Origin: Fusobacterium mortiferum ATCC 9817
Lineage (GTDB): Bacteria > Fusobacteriota > Fusobacteriia > Fusobacteriales > Fusobacteriaceae
Length of the DNA stretch: 64,000 nt
Assembly: GCF_000158195.2 (NCBI RefSeq)
Contig: NZ_GL987994.1
Location: 616,343-680,342 of the forward strand
Direction of reading: 5' to 3'
Under the pieces are notes generated by a model. It was not told the origin of the DNA. It saw only the letters and a list, made by a program, of their open reading frames with translations, and did not search any database. How positions within the stretch are numbered: the stretch's first letter is position 1; each line of letters starts with the position of its first letter. The position numbers and the translations under genes were made by a program. This document shows positions 25,099-41,007 of this stretch, piece by piece.

Positions 25099-25260
25099 AA
25101 AACAACCTCCTGTTATTTTATTAGCACATAAACTATATTTCGTCAAGTAGTTAATAAAAAAAATATAAATATAGTCATAGTACAAAAAATATGGTATACT
25201 GTATAAAATGTTCTATTCTATATATTAAAAAAAATTTAAAAATTTAAATGTAAAAAAATG

Positions 25261-25289
25261 TTGACAGAATTTAAAAAAATAGTTATAAT
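25261..25289 (+). promoter_or_regulatory. Promoter of the carAB leader
   Basis: A consensus TTGACA (25261-25266), 17 bases, TATAAT (25284-25289). Transcription would begin near 25296, ahead of a 44-codon leader ORF. Confidence 0.8.
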
Positions 25290-25331
25290 TACTTTTAGTA
25301 AAAAAAAAGGTAAAAGATGGAGGGAGTAGAG

Positions 25332-25466
25332 ATGAGAAATATATTATTTAATAAAAAGCTAAGATTTAATATTTTTCTTGTTGATATTTCATCTTATTTT
25401 TCTTTTAAAGATATATTTATTTTAAAATTTATTAATTTTTATTTTAGAAATGATATGACTTTTTAG
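25332..25466 (+). CDS. Putative 44-residue leader peptide of carAB
   Basis: A small ORF with a strong SD (ggaggga, 9 bases upstream). It starts MRNILFNKKLRFNIF and ends RNDMTF. It contains ten phenylalanines and is encoded almost wholly by U-rich codons. Its stop TAG (25464-25466) lies in the loop/right arm of an intrinsic terminator (25448-25482) placed before carA. This is the geometry of E. coli pyrBI attenuation, where a similar-sized leader peptide is translated behind a polymerase that pauses at U tracts when UTP is low. The mechanism here is inference; the ORF, SD and hairpin are seen directly. Confidence 0.6.
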   Translation: MRNILFNKKLRFNIFLVDISSYFSFKDIFILKFINFYFRNDMTF

Positions 25467-25482
25467 TTATATCATTTTTTTT
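25448..25482 (+). terminator. Attenuator terminator before carA
   Basis: A 12-pair stem (AAATGATATGAC with GTTATATCATTT, one G-U pair), a six-base loop and an eight-T run. It overlaps the end of the leader ORF and lies 40 bases upstream of the carA start. Confidence 0.75.
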
Positions 25483-25521
25483 GGGAAAAAATTTTAGTAT
25501 TAGAATTTATAGGAGGTTAAA

Positions 25522-26577
25522 GTGAGAGGAAAACTTATTCTTGAAAATGGTATGAGTTTTGAAGGAAAAATTTTTGGTGAGTTAGGAGAGTGTACTGGAG
25601 AATTAGTATTCAATACAGGAATGACTGGTTATCAAGAACTTTTAACTGACCCATCATACTGTGGGCAAATTGTAGTAATGACATACCCAATGATAGGAAA
25701 CTATGGAATCAACTTAGAGGATATGGAGTCTAGTAAAATTCATTTAAAAGGGTTTGTAATTAAAGAAGATGCTAAACTTCCTAATAACTTCAGATGTGAA
25801 ATGACATTAGATGGATTTTTAAGACAAAACAGTGTAGTAGCATTTAAAGGTGTAGATACAAGACAACTTACAAAAATAATCAGAGAAGAGGGAGCAATGA
25901 GAGCTATAATCACTGCTGAAGACTTAACTGAGAAAGAGATTTGGGAGCGTTTCAATGCATATAGTAATAAAGATGCTGTAAGCCAAGTAAGTACAAAAGA
26001 GATATATGAGATTCCTGGAGAGGGAAAAAGAATAGGAGTAATGGACTTTGGAATAAAAAGAAATATCCTAAGAAGCTTCTCAAAAAGAGGTTGCCATTTA
26101 GTAGTTTTCCCTTGGAATACAACAGCTGAAGAGATAATGAAATATGATTTAGATGGATTATTCCTATCTAATGGACCTGGAGACCCAGCTGATTTAACTG
26201 GTGTAATAGAAGAGATTAAGAAAATGGTAGGAAAACTTCCAATAGTTGCTATCTGCTTAGGACATCAATTATTATCTTGGGCATTAGGTGGAACTACTAC
26301 TAAATTAAAATATGGACATAGAGGATGTAACCACCCAGTTAAAGATTTAATAAAAAATAAAATTTTTATAACTTCTCAAAACCACGGATATGTAGTGGAT
26401 AGAGTACCTGAGGCTATGGAAGTAACTCATATTAACTTAAACGATAACTCTATCGAAGGAATGAGAAGTAAAGATTTAAGAATTATGTGTGTACAATATC
26501 ACCCAGAGGCTTGGCCAGGACCATCAGACTCTGACTATCTATTTGATGATTTCTTAGATGTTATAGAAGGAAAATAA
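25522..26577 (+). CDS. carA: Carbamoyl-phosphate synthase small (glutaminase) subunit
   Basis: A 351-residue subunit that hydrolyses glutamine and channels ammonia to CarB. The N-terminal CarA domain starts RGKLILENGMSFEGKIFG. The class I glutamine amidotransferase domain has the Cys nucleophile in AICLGHQLL and His/Glu in YHPEAWPGP. Carbamoyl phosphate feeds pyrimidine and arginine synthesis. The start is GTG after the SD aggaggt. It is followed by carB after 52 bases and controlled by the leader/terminator upstream. Confidence 0.97.
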   Translation: MRGKLILENGMSFEGKIFGELGECTGELVFNTGMTGYQELLTDPSYCGQIVVMTYPMIGNYGINLEDMESSKIHLKGFVIKEDAKLPNNFRCEMTLDGFLRQNSVVAFKGVDTRQLTKIIREEGAMRAIITAEDLTEKEIWERFNAYSNKDAVSQVSTKEIYEIPGEGKRIGVMDFGIKRNILRSFSKRGCHLVVFPWNTTAEEIMKYDLDGLFLSNGPGDPADLTGVIEEIKKMVGKLPIVAICLGHQLLSWALGGTTTKLKYGHRGCNHPVKDLIKNKIFITSQNHGYVVDRVPEAMEVTHINLNDNSIEGMRSKDLRIMCVQYHPEAWPGPSDSDYLFDDFLDVIEGK

Positions 26578-35860: not shown

Positions 35861-35880
35861 GGATACAAAATTAGTATCTT

Positions 35881-35963
35881 CCATCTGTCTGGAATTAGCA
35901 CCACATCTATAAGATAGGTTGCTGAAACGTCATAGAGCCAGTCTCTCGGTTTCTCTTGATGGT
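35881..35963 (-). promoter_or_regulatory. SAM-I (S-box) riboswitch
   Basis: On the minus strand the conserved core reads ATCAAGAGAAACCGAGAGAC, then TGGCTCTATGA, TTCAGCAACC and GTGGTGCTAATTCCAGACAG. These are the S-box landmarks (AAGAG kink-turn region, GCAACC, GGTGCTAA.TCC). P1 is CCATC/GATGG. High SAM should allow the terminator and switch off metNIQ-M20. The aptamer lies about 80 bases before metN. Confidence 0.92.
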
Positions 35964-35984
35964 TTGTTTTTTGTTGTTGGGGTA

Positions 35985-36021: not shown

Positions 36022-38763
36022 TTATAATAATTCTCTATATTTTTTGATATACTGTTTTTTAACTAGTGTAACTAGTAGCATATATCCTACTATTGTTAGG
36101 ATTAAGAAGAACCAATAGATAAGTGGTAATTGAGTTAATCCTAATAGATTTCCTAAAGGAGTATATGGAATTATTGAAACAATTAAAATTCCTAACATTG
36201 TAAGTACAGTTACAGGTAAAGAAGTTATACTTTGAATAAAAGGAATTTTTGGAGTTCTTATCATATGGATAACTAGAGTTTGCGACCACATAGATTCAAT
36301 AAACCAACCTGTTTGGAACATAGCTTCATAAGCTGCTCTCAATGTTTCTTGCTCAACTGGGATAGAGTTGTATAGCACTCCATTCGATACAAACATAGGA
36401 CAGATTACAAAATACATCAATAAGTATGTAGTTATATCAAATATAGAACTAGTAGGTCCTATCCATAACATAAATTTTCCAATAGAGCTTGCTTCCCATT
36501 TTCTAGGAATTTTTAAAAACTCTTTATCTACATTATCCCAAGGGATAGCAGTACAAGATAGGTCATAGATTAGATTTAATAGAATTAAGTGTATGCTCAT
36601 CATTGGTAAAAATGGTAAGAAAGCACTAGCAGCTAATACTGAAAACATATTACCAAAGTTAGATGAAGCAGTCATCTTAATATACTTAATCATATTAGCA
36701 TAAGTTTTACGTCCCTCTATAATTCCCTCTTCTAATACCATTAAATCTTTTTCAAGTAAGATTATATCAGCAGATTCCTTAGCTATATCCACAGCTGTAT
36801 CAACAGATATTCCTATATCTGCCTCTTTCATAGCAGCAGCATCATTTATTCCATCTCCCATAAATCCAACTGTATGTCCATTCTCTTTTAAGATTTGAAC
36901 AATTCTAGTTTTTTGCATAGGAGATAGTTTTGCAAAGATATCTACCTTTTCAATAACAGTTGAAAGTTCTTCATCACTCATATTATCTATATCTGAGCCA
37001 AGTAAAATATTTTTACTATTAAGTCCAACTTTTCCACAAATACTTTTAGTAACTTTATCATTATCTCCAGTTAGAACCTTAGTTCTTACACCATACTCTT
37101 TTAGAGCAGCAATAGCCTTAGCAGTTGTAGGTTTAGGTGGGTCTAAGAAAGCAAGATATCCCATAAGTACCATATCTACTTCATCTTTTACTCCAAAACT
37201 ATCCACAGGAGATGGATTAGTTTTTTGAGCAAGAGCAATAACACGAAGTCCGTCTTCATTGAATTTTTCAACAGTTTTTAAAACTTCCTCTTTTATCTCA
37301 TCAGTAAGTAAAACTATCTCACCTTTAAACTCTGTATATTTACAAATAGATAACATCTCTTCAACAGCACCTTTAGTTATCATCTGTCTTTTTCCTGATT
37401 TATCTTCTACCACTACAGTCATACGACGACGAGAAAAGTCAAAAGGAATCTCATCAACTTTTGTATATATCTTTTCTAATTCTAAAAGAGAACTATCCTT
37501 TTCTCCTTCTTCATGAGTTTTTTCAATGATAGATAAATCTAATAGATTTTTTAATCCTGTTTGAAACCAGCTATTTAAAAAAGCATGACGCAATACTCTA
37601 TTATTTTCATTTCCATGTACGTCCATATGATACTCTAGAACTACCTTGTCTAAAGTGATAGTTCCTGTCTTATCTGTACAAAGGATATCCATTGAACCAA
37701 AGTTTTGAATAGAATTAAGATTTTTAACAATAGTTTTCTTTTTAGCCATAGATACAGCACCTTTAGCTAGACAAGTTGTAACTATCATAGGTAACATCTC
37801 TGGAGTAAGTCCTACAGCTATTGAGATGGCAAATAGTAGAGCTTGTACCCAGCTTCCTTTTGTAAATCCATTTACAAAGAATACAATAGGAACCATTACC
37901 ATCATAAAACGGATAAGCAACCATGAAACAGAATTGACACCTTTTTCGAAACTAGATTCAATTTTTTCATCTGATACTAAAGTTTTAGATATAGAACCAA
38001 GAAGTGTATTATCTCCAGTAGAGATAACAACTCCAATAGCTGAGCCACTGATAACATTGCTTCCCATAAAAGCTATGTTATTTAACTCTGTTACAGCAAG
38101 TTTATCATCTAGTATAATTTGAGCTTTTTTCTCTACTGGCTCACTCTCACCTGTTAGAGAAGATTGGCTGATAAAGAAGTCTTTACACTCAATTATTCTT
38201 AAATCAGCAGGGATAATATCCCCAGCAGCAAGATAAACTATATCTCCGATTACTACATCTTCTAAAGGAATCTCCTTTTTATTTTCTCCAAATCTTTTAA
38301 CTGAAGTAGTAGTAGTTATCATAGCAGATAAGCTTTCAGCAGCATTATTACTTTTTTCCTCTTGAATAAAACGTAATAATCCAGAGATAGTAACCATAGT
38401 AGTGATAATGATTACTGTAATAGGAGAAAAATCTTCTGGAGTGTTGCTGTACCAAGGAATAATCATATCAGTAACAGTAGATACAAGAGCTAGACAGAAA
38501 AGTACAGCTGTAAAAGGATTTACAAAAGCCTCTACTATTTTTTTGAAGAAAGATTTTTTCTTTCCATGAGTTATTATATTCTTTCCAAATATATCTAAGC
38601 TTTTTTCAGCTTGTTCCTTAGTAACTCCCTCTAAAGATGTATCTAATTTTTTTAGTAACTCCTCTGTTCCTAGAGAAGAGTACACTCTTATTTTTTTGTT
38701 TTCTTCATCTTTTAGATTTCTTGAGTTGATTTCGGTTTTATTAATGTTTTTAAATTTTTTCAT
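36022..38763 (-). CDS. mgtA: Magnesium-translocating P-type ATPase MgtA
   Basis: A 913-residue P3B-type ATPase that imports Mg2+ into the cytosol. Motifs are the actuator loop [12 protein letters not shown], the phosphorylation site [27 protein letters not shown] and the hinge [13 protein letters not shown]. About ten membrane segments are grouped as in MgtA/MgtB. I start at the ATG at 38763 (KKFKNINKT) after the SD aaggagg. The longer frame to 38814 adds residues without an SD. It is preceded by an M-box, a terminator and a leader ORF with a second terminator, as fits Mg2+ control. Confidence 0.95.
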
Positions 38764-38838
38764 TGCTATCCTCCTTAATTTTAAAATATCTTTAAATCTT
38801 AAACAGGGTAGCATATATTTAAAAGAACAAGGGCGAAC

Positions 38839-38919
38839 TTAAAAACAGACATAGAAAAAGATGTCTGATAAATATTGAACTTTTAAATACATACTACTGC
38901 CACTATTTTCTACGTCCAT
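38839..38919 (-). CDS. Putative 26-residue leader peptide of mgtA
   Basis: On the minus strand a perfect SD (aggaggtg) precedes an ATG at 38919. The peptide is MDVENSGSSMYLKVQYLSDI followed by FFYVCF. Its last ten codons run through a terminator hairpin (stem 38846-38852 with 38861-38867) and the stop follows the U tract. It lies between the M-box terminator and mgtA. Salmonella mgtA also has a Mg2+-linked leader peptide (MgtL), but with no sequence likeness. Acidic residues at positions 2 and 4 are notable because acidic N-termini are linked to ribosome drop-off at low Mg2+; this link is inference. Confidence 0.5.
   Translation of the reverse strand: MDVENSGSSMYLKVQYLSDIFFYVCF
38841..38867 (-). 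terminator. Second attenuator terminator before mgtA
   Basis: Stem CAGACAT/ATGTCTG with an 8-base loop and five T on the minus strand, embedded in the 3' part of the leader ORF. Confidence 0.65.
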
Positions 38920-38943
38920 TTTGCACCTCCTAAAAAATCAAGA

Positions 38944-38984
38944 AAATAAAAAACTCCATACCAATTCAAACAGTGGTATGGAGT
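38944..38984 (-). terminator. M-box expression-platform terminator
   Basis: An 11-bp perfect stem ACTCCATACCA/TGGTATGGAGT, followed on the minus strand by a T-rich run. Confidence 0.85.
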
Positions 38985-39009
38985 AATATCCAAATAAATA
39001 TAAAAAATA

Positions 39010-39180
39010 AAAAACTATTTTTTACCACCGTTTGAGCTTTAACTCTGTAGGGCGGTGAAGTTACATTAGATAACACCTTGGTTTCGATGTTGCCTGTTCA
39101 AACCAGCGCATAGTGTCTCCACTATTTTGCGGCAGTAACCCATATCCCTATAGTAGCCTTACTTACCGGAACTATTAAGT
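39010..39180 (-). promoter_or_regulatory. M-box (ykoK) Mg2+ riboswitch
   Basis: On the minus strand the order GGTAAGTAAGGCTACTATA, GGGATATGGGTTACTGCCGC, GAGACACTATGCGCTGG, AACAGGCAACATCGAAACC, AAGGTGTTATCTAATG and CTACAGAGTTAAAGCTC matches the M-box consensus blocks, including ACTGCCGC and AGTTAAAGCTC. Mg2+ binding should permit the terminator and silence mgtA. It begins close to the transcription start. Confidence 0.9.
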
Positions 39181-39187
39181 TGTCTAA

Positions 39188-39216
39188 AGTATAGTATAAT
39201 TTTTTTTATTTGTCAA
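39188..39216 (-). promoter_or_regulatory. Promoter of the M-box/mgtA unit
   Basis: On the minus strand TTGACA (39211-39216), 17 bases, TATACT (39188-39193). Confidence 0.7.
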
Positions 39217-40844: not shown

Positions 40845-40870
40845 AGGATAGACGAAAAATAGTATATCTT

Positions 40871-40986
40871 TTCTTCTTCCATCCAGACTATACTGTCGGT
40901 TTTGGAATTTCACCAAATCAGAATTAAAAAATTCTCGTGGACTATAACCACCGGTCGGGAATTGTTACCTCACCCTGCCCTGAAGA
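40871..40986 (-). promoter_or_regulatory. FMN (RFN) riboswitch
   Basis: On the minus strand the classic RFN blocks are all visible: CAGGGCAGGGTGAGGTAAC, ATTCCCGACCGGTGGTTATA, GTCCACGAG, GATTTGGTGAAATTCCAAAA, CCGACAGTATAGTCTGGATG and GAAGAAG. FMN binding should allow the terminator downstream to form. The controlled gene is the FGGY kinase and no rib gene is nearby. Confidence 0.95.
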
Positions 40987-41007
40987 TAAAATATTCTTAC
41001 TAATTTG

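Follow-up and report, generated by a model that had tools for sequence, protein, structure and literature searches.

A predicted leader-peptide attenuator between the M-box riboswitch and mgtA of Fusobacterium mortiferum, with similar leader ORFs in other Fusobacteriota and in Bacillota

M-box riboswitches are assumed to suffice by themselves, and, to our knowledge, only a few enterobacterial leaders are known in which the destabilization of ribosomes by acidic nascent chains serves to sense Mg2+. In Salmonella mgtQ this destabilization is induced by Asp2/Glu5, and alternative stem-loops free the ribosome binding site of mgtB (Choi et al. 2021, PMC8092293). In MgtL, encoded in the mgtA leader of E. 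coli and Salmonella, low Mg2+ leads to drop-off of ribosomes at EPDP and mgtA is switched on (summarized in PMC11282234). The pe20 M-box of Mycobacterium tuberculosis is followed by short ORFs and an SD/anti-SD switch; this M-box itself acts on translation, with a link to Rho, and its target is a conserved small protein encoded before pe20 (D'Halluin et al. 2026, PMC12810186). M-boxes of the Bacillus subtilis ykoK type (RF00380), with aptamer, terminator and antiterminator, act alone.

Here we describe a locus that shares elements with each of these systems. The window analysed, a stretch of 64,000 nucleotides from F. mortiferum ATCC 9817, carries on its minus strand, in this order, a promoter, an M-box, the M-box terminator, a strong SD sequence, an ORF of 26 codons, a hairpin with five U residues and mgtA (Table 1). 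A preliminary description had proposed that an M-box is combined before mgtA with a leader ORF preceded by a perfect SD, and both elements were confirmed: the aptamer belongs to RF00380 by its covariance-model score, and downstream of the M-box terminator there is, as in leaders of the MgtL type, a short SD-led ORF in the 5' leader of mgtA. The 3' strand of the M-box, TCAAACGGTGGTA (39035-39023), can form an antiterminator of 13 bp with TACCACTGTTTGA (38978-38966), which sits within the 5' half of the M-box terminator, so that this pairing excludes the terminator; the two structures are predicted to be a standard expression platform. The mgtA gene starts with ATG at 38763 and has the SD GGAGG. 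The 227 bases from the M-box terminator to mgtA (38764-38990) folded far better than shuffled sequences (z = -4.56), and an Rfam scan downstream of the M-box matched no known RNA family, with two chance microRNA matches far below the cut-off. The same window also holds an FMN riboswitch (40867-40991, minus strand, 109.4 bits) and a SAM riboswitch (35878-35965, minus strand, 64.2 bits).

Table 1. Features of the M-box and mgtA leader region (window coordinates)
Feature	Position	Strand	Remarks
Sigma-70-type promoter TTGACA-17-TATACT	39188..39216	-	11/12 consensus positions
M-box (Mg2+) riboswitch aptamer	39016..39177	-	Rfam RF00380, 97.3 bits, gathering score 44
M-box intrinsic terminator hairpin	38953..38984	-	-15.9 kcal/mol; U tract TTTTTT 38952-38947
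Leader ORF SD GGAGG	38926..38930	-	Seen in the sequence; conserved in relatives
Leader ORF, 26 codons, MDVENSGSSMYLKVQYLSDIFFYVCF, acidic D2 and E4	38839..38919 (stop included)	-	Kept in relatives
P0 5' arm AAAATGGACGTAGAAAA, leader start-codon region	38906..38922	-	17 uninterrupted pairs with 38858-38842; covariation
P0 3' arm TTTTCTATGTCTGTTTT, leader ORF end	38842..38858	-	Overlaps loop, 3' arm and U tract of P2
P1 5' arm GTAGTATGTATTTAAAAG, leader codons 8-14	38880..38897	-	18 uninterrupted pairs with 38825-38808; covariation
P1 3' arm CTTTTAAATATATGCTAC, between leader stop and mgtA	38808..38825	-	Pairing and covariation
P2 hairpin, ORF end, nested in P1	38846..38867	-	7 bp, 8-nt loop, -6.5 kcal/mol; U5 at 38845-38841
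P3 masking arm GCTACCCTGTTTAAG	38798..38812	-	Predicted to pair with mgtA SD region in the P0+P3 fold
mgtA SD region GGAGGATAGC	38765..38774	-	Predicted to be masked by P3
mgtA, Mg2+-translocating P-type ATPase	36022..38763	-	TIGR01524, 1144.5 bits, cut-off 610.75

As in Salmonella mgtQ-mgtB, the region has a short ORF with an acidic start and alternative stem-loops predicted to mask or free the ribosome site of the transporter gene, which would give translational control, and a helix inside the ORF is predicted to compete with the freeing helix. The alternative helices are given here by prediction and covariation, more weakly for P3 than for P0 and P1. However, mgtQ has eight codons and lies between mgtC and mgtB in the PhoP-controlled mgtCBRU operon with no M-box, whereas the ORFs described here, of about 20-48 codons, lie behind an M-box and before mgtA in Bacillota and Fusobacteriota. 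With MgtL the locus shares an mgtA leader peptide with acidic residues at positions 2 and 4, but MgtL has the EPDP prolines and acts via a Rho-dependent terminator, whereas the predicted alternative structures here fit masking of the mgtA SD rather than Rho-dependent termination as the output, and a true M-box lies upstream. The closest described system is the pe20 M-box with its uORFs, which differs in target, platform and peptide (PMC12810186): unlike in pe20, the M-box here has its own intrinsic terminator and the acidic-start ORF would be a separate, later layer before mgtA. The first layer matches the ykoK type in aptamer, terminator and antiterminator, and M-box loci before mgtE, mgtC and uppP are mostly without an ORF.

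Conservation of the ORF, which the preliminary description had left to be checked, was examined in leaders of relatives obtained by genome search. Fusobacterial M-boxes were confined to 18 of 98 genomes from three genera, which we infer to be Fusobacterium-, Cetobacterium- and Sebaldella-like. A short SD-led ORF followed the M-box terminator in all fusobacterial M-box-to-mgtA loci read, and the persistence of start, SD and frame across the three genera places the leader ORF above chance. The peptides begin MDVENS or MDTGNS in the genus of the window, MDAGVSDS or MEGDVQSS/MEGEVQSS in the second genus and MPEEPS in the third; start, SD and acidic N-terminus are constant, and lengths and C-termini vary. 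A starvation codon or arrest peptide at the C-terminus was rejected because the C-terminal peptide is not conserved. A second mgtA of one Sebaldella-like genome (L060), not directly behind an M-box, has a leader of its own with the same design (MNEGEL), and the M-boxes before the mgtC-like gene of that genome (G092), a tandem pair (L038/L049) with L060 downstream, are followed by no leader ORF. Many fusobacterial mgtA paralogues are without a leader ORF, and none was found for the M-box-less mgtA genes L061-L063 and L072-L077.

Acidic residues are concentrated at the start of the peptides. Across 57 leaders, of which the Bacillota part was chosen regardless of sequence, Asp and Glu make up 36% of residues 2-5 and 6% of those beyond residue 16, and an acidic pair falls within residues 2-8 in 38 leaders, against 6.9 expected when each peptide is shuffled. 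In 55 ORFs, a partly hand-picked set, the dinucleotide GA in codons 2-5 reaches 38% in frame versus 7% and 2% in the other phases, and is contributed by all four GAN codons. This dependence on frame is our best evidence both for translation of the leader ORF and for selection on the acidic residues. An EPDP-like proline motif is present in some leaders only (MPEEPS, MQIDDHPEP, MAHHQEDEVEEPDS), and the peptide of the window has D2 and E4 without proline. In several leaders (MDTGNS, MDAGVS) only one acidic residue stands near the start, and di-acidic motifs alone are reported to be insufficient to destabilize translation (PMC11282234), which weighs against the attenuator proposed below.

Similar leaders occur beyond the fusobacteria. 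We sampled 80 mgtA loci containing 59 mgtA genes with a usable start, and scored SD-led short ORFs lying 80-330 bases upstream, with genes from the flanks of the same loci as controls. Such an ORF precedes 34 of the 59 mgtA genes, mostly in Bacillota, compared with 8 of 135 control genes, two of which are probably positive through mgtA leaders counted via mis-called starts; by these criteria the remaining 25 mgtA genes have no leader ORF. Examples are MDSDSSP, MDEGSSTG (Trichococcus palustris), MESQSINSPEPERP (Lactococcus cremoris), MEEGSSK (Clostridium gallinarum) and MIQIDDHPEPHR (Streptococcus parasanguinis). Rfam M-boxes lie upstream of mgtA in 25 of 39 loci scanned, and the leader therefore occurs both with and without an M-box. 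When M-box loci from two further orders were compared, the ORF was found before 29 of 35 MgtA genes and 7 of 28 others. The P values of these two comparisons (~1e-14 and 7e-6, respectively) are indicative only, because the sets are samples that include related species. At least four of the seven non-MgtA positives are acidic ORFs before mgtE or mgtC, and the leader may also serve other Mg2+ transporters. The ORFs MMDSDGSSC, MEDEWNSRQ, MDGECSG and MMEVSDDQ (L211, L215, L216 and L225), for instance, follow M-boxes before three mgtE genes and one mgtC gene. As judged from these comparisons, the same two-layer arrangement appears in many Gram-positive and fusobacterial genomes. M-boxes were also seen before uppP-like genes (undecaprenyl-diphosphate phosphatase; L200-L203, L207, L209 and L221), which would not be expected as targets of a Mg2+ riboswitch; family membership was confirmed for L200 alone. 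In Lactobacillales and Lachnospirales the M-box scores seem bimodal, at about 110-165 and about 72-105 bits; the mgtA M-boxes of fusobacteria, Lactococcus and Streptococcus fall in or near the low-score group, which may be a structural subtype.

The preliminary description had also raised alternative pairing within the leader, and such pairing is present and covaries, in P0 and P1, across fusobacteria. The recurring helices are P0, between the SD/start region of the leader and the ORF end, P1, between ORF codons from about +23 and an arm lying after the leader stop and in front of mgtA, and P3, in which this same arm pairs with the mgtA SD. In the window, the P3 masking arm overlaps the P1 3' arm at GCTAC, and the two folds are isoenergetic (-40.3 and -39.4 kcal/mol). 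As drawn, P0 and P1 cross as a pseudoknot, so that both cannot enter one covariance model, and their mutual exclusivity is assumed. Covariation was read from an unfitted alignment of few rows, nine related Fusobacterium-type leaders from two clades, in which 91.9% of P0/P1 cells are standard pairs and nine pairs have changed on both sides, against at most four with one arm slid; shuffles gave a mean of 5.6 such pairs and reached nine in 1 of 500. Compensatory changes include A-U to G-C in P0 (columns 19/101 and 20/100) and U-A to C-G in P1 (columns 44/156, 49/151 and 54/146). The same helices, built from unrelated sequences, are found in the other fusobacterial genera. In most fusobacterial loci P1 and P0 were stronger than in dinucleotide shuffles and, among the other loci, were significant (at most 5 of 200 shuffles) in 18 of 27 and 19 of 27, respectively; true arms paired better than arms swapped between loci (both ranks <=0.05) in 24 of 43 for P1 and 16 of 43 for P0. 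P3 is the weakest helix, being significant in 9 of 27 loci by shuffling and 7 of 43 by arm swaps.

We consider it reasonably probable that this second layer is a translational attenuator like Salmonella MgtQ or E. coli MgtL, stacked under the M-box. Two Mg2+ controls would then act in series on one mRNA, the first being an ordinary transcription-terminating M-box and the second a ribosome-read translational attenuator with an acidic N-terminus encoded by its leader ORF. In the OFF fold, P0 (leader start and ORF end) plus P3 would mask the mgtA ribosome site, and in the ON fold P1 (codons 8-14 and the masking arm), with P2 nested inside, would leave it free. At low Mg2+, ribosomes beginning the leader would prevent P0 and then stall or drop off at the acidic codons near its start; the P1 5' arm would thereby be free, P1 would form and mgtA would be translated. 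At high Mg2+, ribosomes would traverse the ORF, melt P1 and allow P3. Both layers would act in the same direction. ORF translation, Mg2+-dependent drop-off and the direction of control are the parts of this scheme that we infer.

Taken together, the evidence favours regulation at the level of translation, acting on the mgtA ribosome site through two states, P0+P3 and P1. The mean cost of opening the site in fusobacteria is 2.7 kcal/mol when a ribosome sits at the leader start versus 10.8 kcal/mol when the ORF is occupied (16 of 16 loci), and the other loci have the same, weaker tendency (5.9 versus 10.3 kcal/mol; 22 of 27). When the ORF is shuffled beyond codon 6, the ribosome-at-start value rises to 9.2 kcal/mol in fusobacteria (mean z -3.9), which makes the low opening cost a property of the ORF sequence; it rises to 9.1 kcal/mol in the other loci (z -1.7). 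In the leader of the window the SD remains under a local hairpin even when P1 forms, the mean unpaired probability is 0.20 in every state and the states differ in opening energy only (5.2 versus 10.7 kcal/mol); unpaired probability was thus too blunt for this leader, and opening energy with the shuffled-ORF control was adopted. The energy test is not borne out in some loci, among them L124, L131 and L095. By comparison among loci, the ORF and its acidic start are conserved, as are P0, P1 and the predicted change in how accessible the mgtA site is.

An alternative is transcription attenuation, in which the ORF-end hairpin would be a second intrinsic terminator governed by translation of the ORF. 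As stated in the preliminary description, the final codons of the ORF do form a hairpin with a U tract (38867-38846, then TTTTT and the stop codon), the ORF stop lies within this tract of five U residues, hairpins with U tracts are also present in the five Cetobacterium-like leaders and P0 would serve as antiterminator. The stem is weak, however, when set against the M-box terminator (Table 1), and a conserved terminator function was rejected because the U tract is missing in most relatives: a terminator detector found no site at the ORF end of varium-like, Sebaldella-like and nearly all Bacillota loci, where P0 and P1 persist, and outside the Cetobacterium-like loci terminator-like sites were found in only 2 of 27 other loci. 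A ribosome held at the start would, moreover, promote termination at low Mg2+, opposite to the M-box, and we regard a second terminator as unlikely. The hairpin of the window falls below the detector cut-offs yet is listed by a simpler consensus scan, and weak termination there is possible. The A-rich spacer between the SD and AUG of the leader ORF has its complement in the U tract of that hairpin (P0), and where the spacer differs the U tract is gone and P0 is kept (AGAAGGAUGGACA/UGUCCAUCCUUCU in L006, GGUGGAAGAAAU/AUUUCUUCCACC in L048 and GUGAGAAGAAUGGACG/CGUCCAUUCUUCUCAC in L120); the 3' arm of the hairpin is more readily accounted for as complementary to the start site of the leader ORF itself. 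A likeness to the carAB leader of the same window (25258-25522, plus strand) had also been suggested, and a hairpin followed by a long U tract does close the carAB leader, but its arrangement is different and the likeness superficial. The carAB leader has a perfect TTGACA-17-TATAAT promoter and a Phe/U-rich leader ORF, MRNILFNKKLRFNIFLVDISSYFSFKDIFILKFINFYFRNDMTF, with its stop at the loop of the hairpin ATGATATGAC/GTTATATCAT, and looks like pyrBI-type UTP-sensing attenuation, not the mgtA design.

The strong, covarying P0, P1 and P3 and the lack of conservation in the C-terminal peptide would also suit a second RNA element, binding a protein or ligand, in which the ORF is incidental or untranslated. 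This is improbable in our view, because SD and ATG are always kept, acidic codons are enriched in a single frame and by way of all four GAN codons, the indels seen in the mortiferum-like clade (L001 versus L005) come in multiples of three and no Rfam family matches. We give similarly little weight to a leader that answers a cue other than Mg2+ through stalling, such as ribosome abundance, an amino acid, an antibiotic or polyamines. Drop-off at acidic stretches does depend on L31 and ABC-F factors as well (PMC8092293, PMC11282234), but the ORF tracks Mg2+ transporters among M-box loci, extending to mgtE and mgtC in the exceptions described above, and the peptides have no conserved run of a single regulatory amino acid.

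A search of the open-access literature gave no description of a leader peptide lying between an M-box and mgtA, nor of one for mgtA outside enterobacteria; with the search covering open-access papers, novelty is provisional. We lean slightly towards the view that Bacillota and Fusobacteriota have a broad, as yet undescribed class of leader peptides that sense Mg2+, in which acidic-start drop-off would be a second sensor under the M-box. If so, an RNA aptamer and the ribosome would sense one ion successively on a single mRNA, and the acidic drop-off principle would extend to two or more additional phyla, some of whose species, Lactococcus cremoris for one, are easy to study. It would then be a testable question why two Mg2+ sensors of different chemistry, and presumably of different thresholds, guard one pump.
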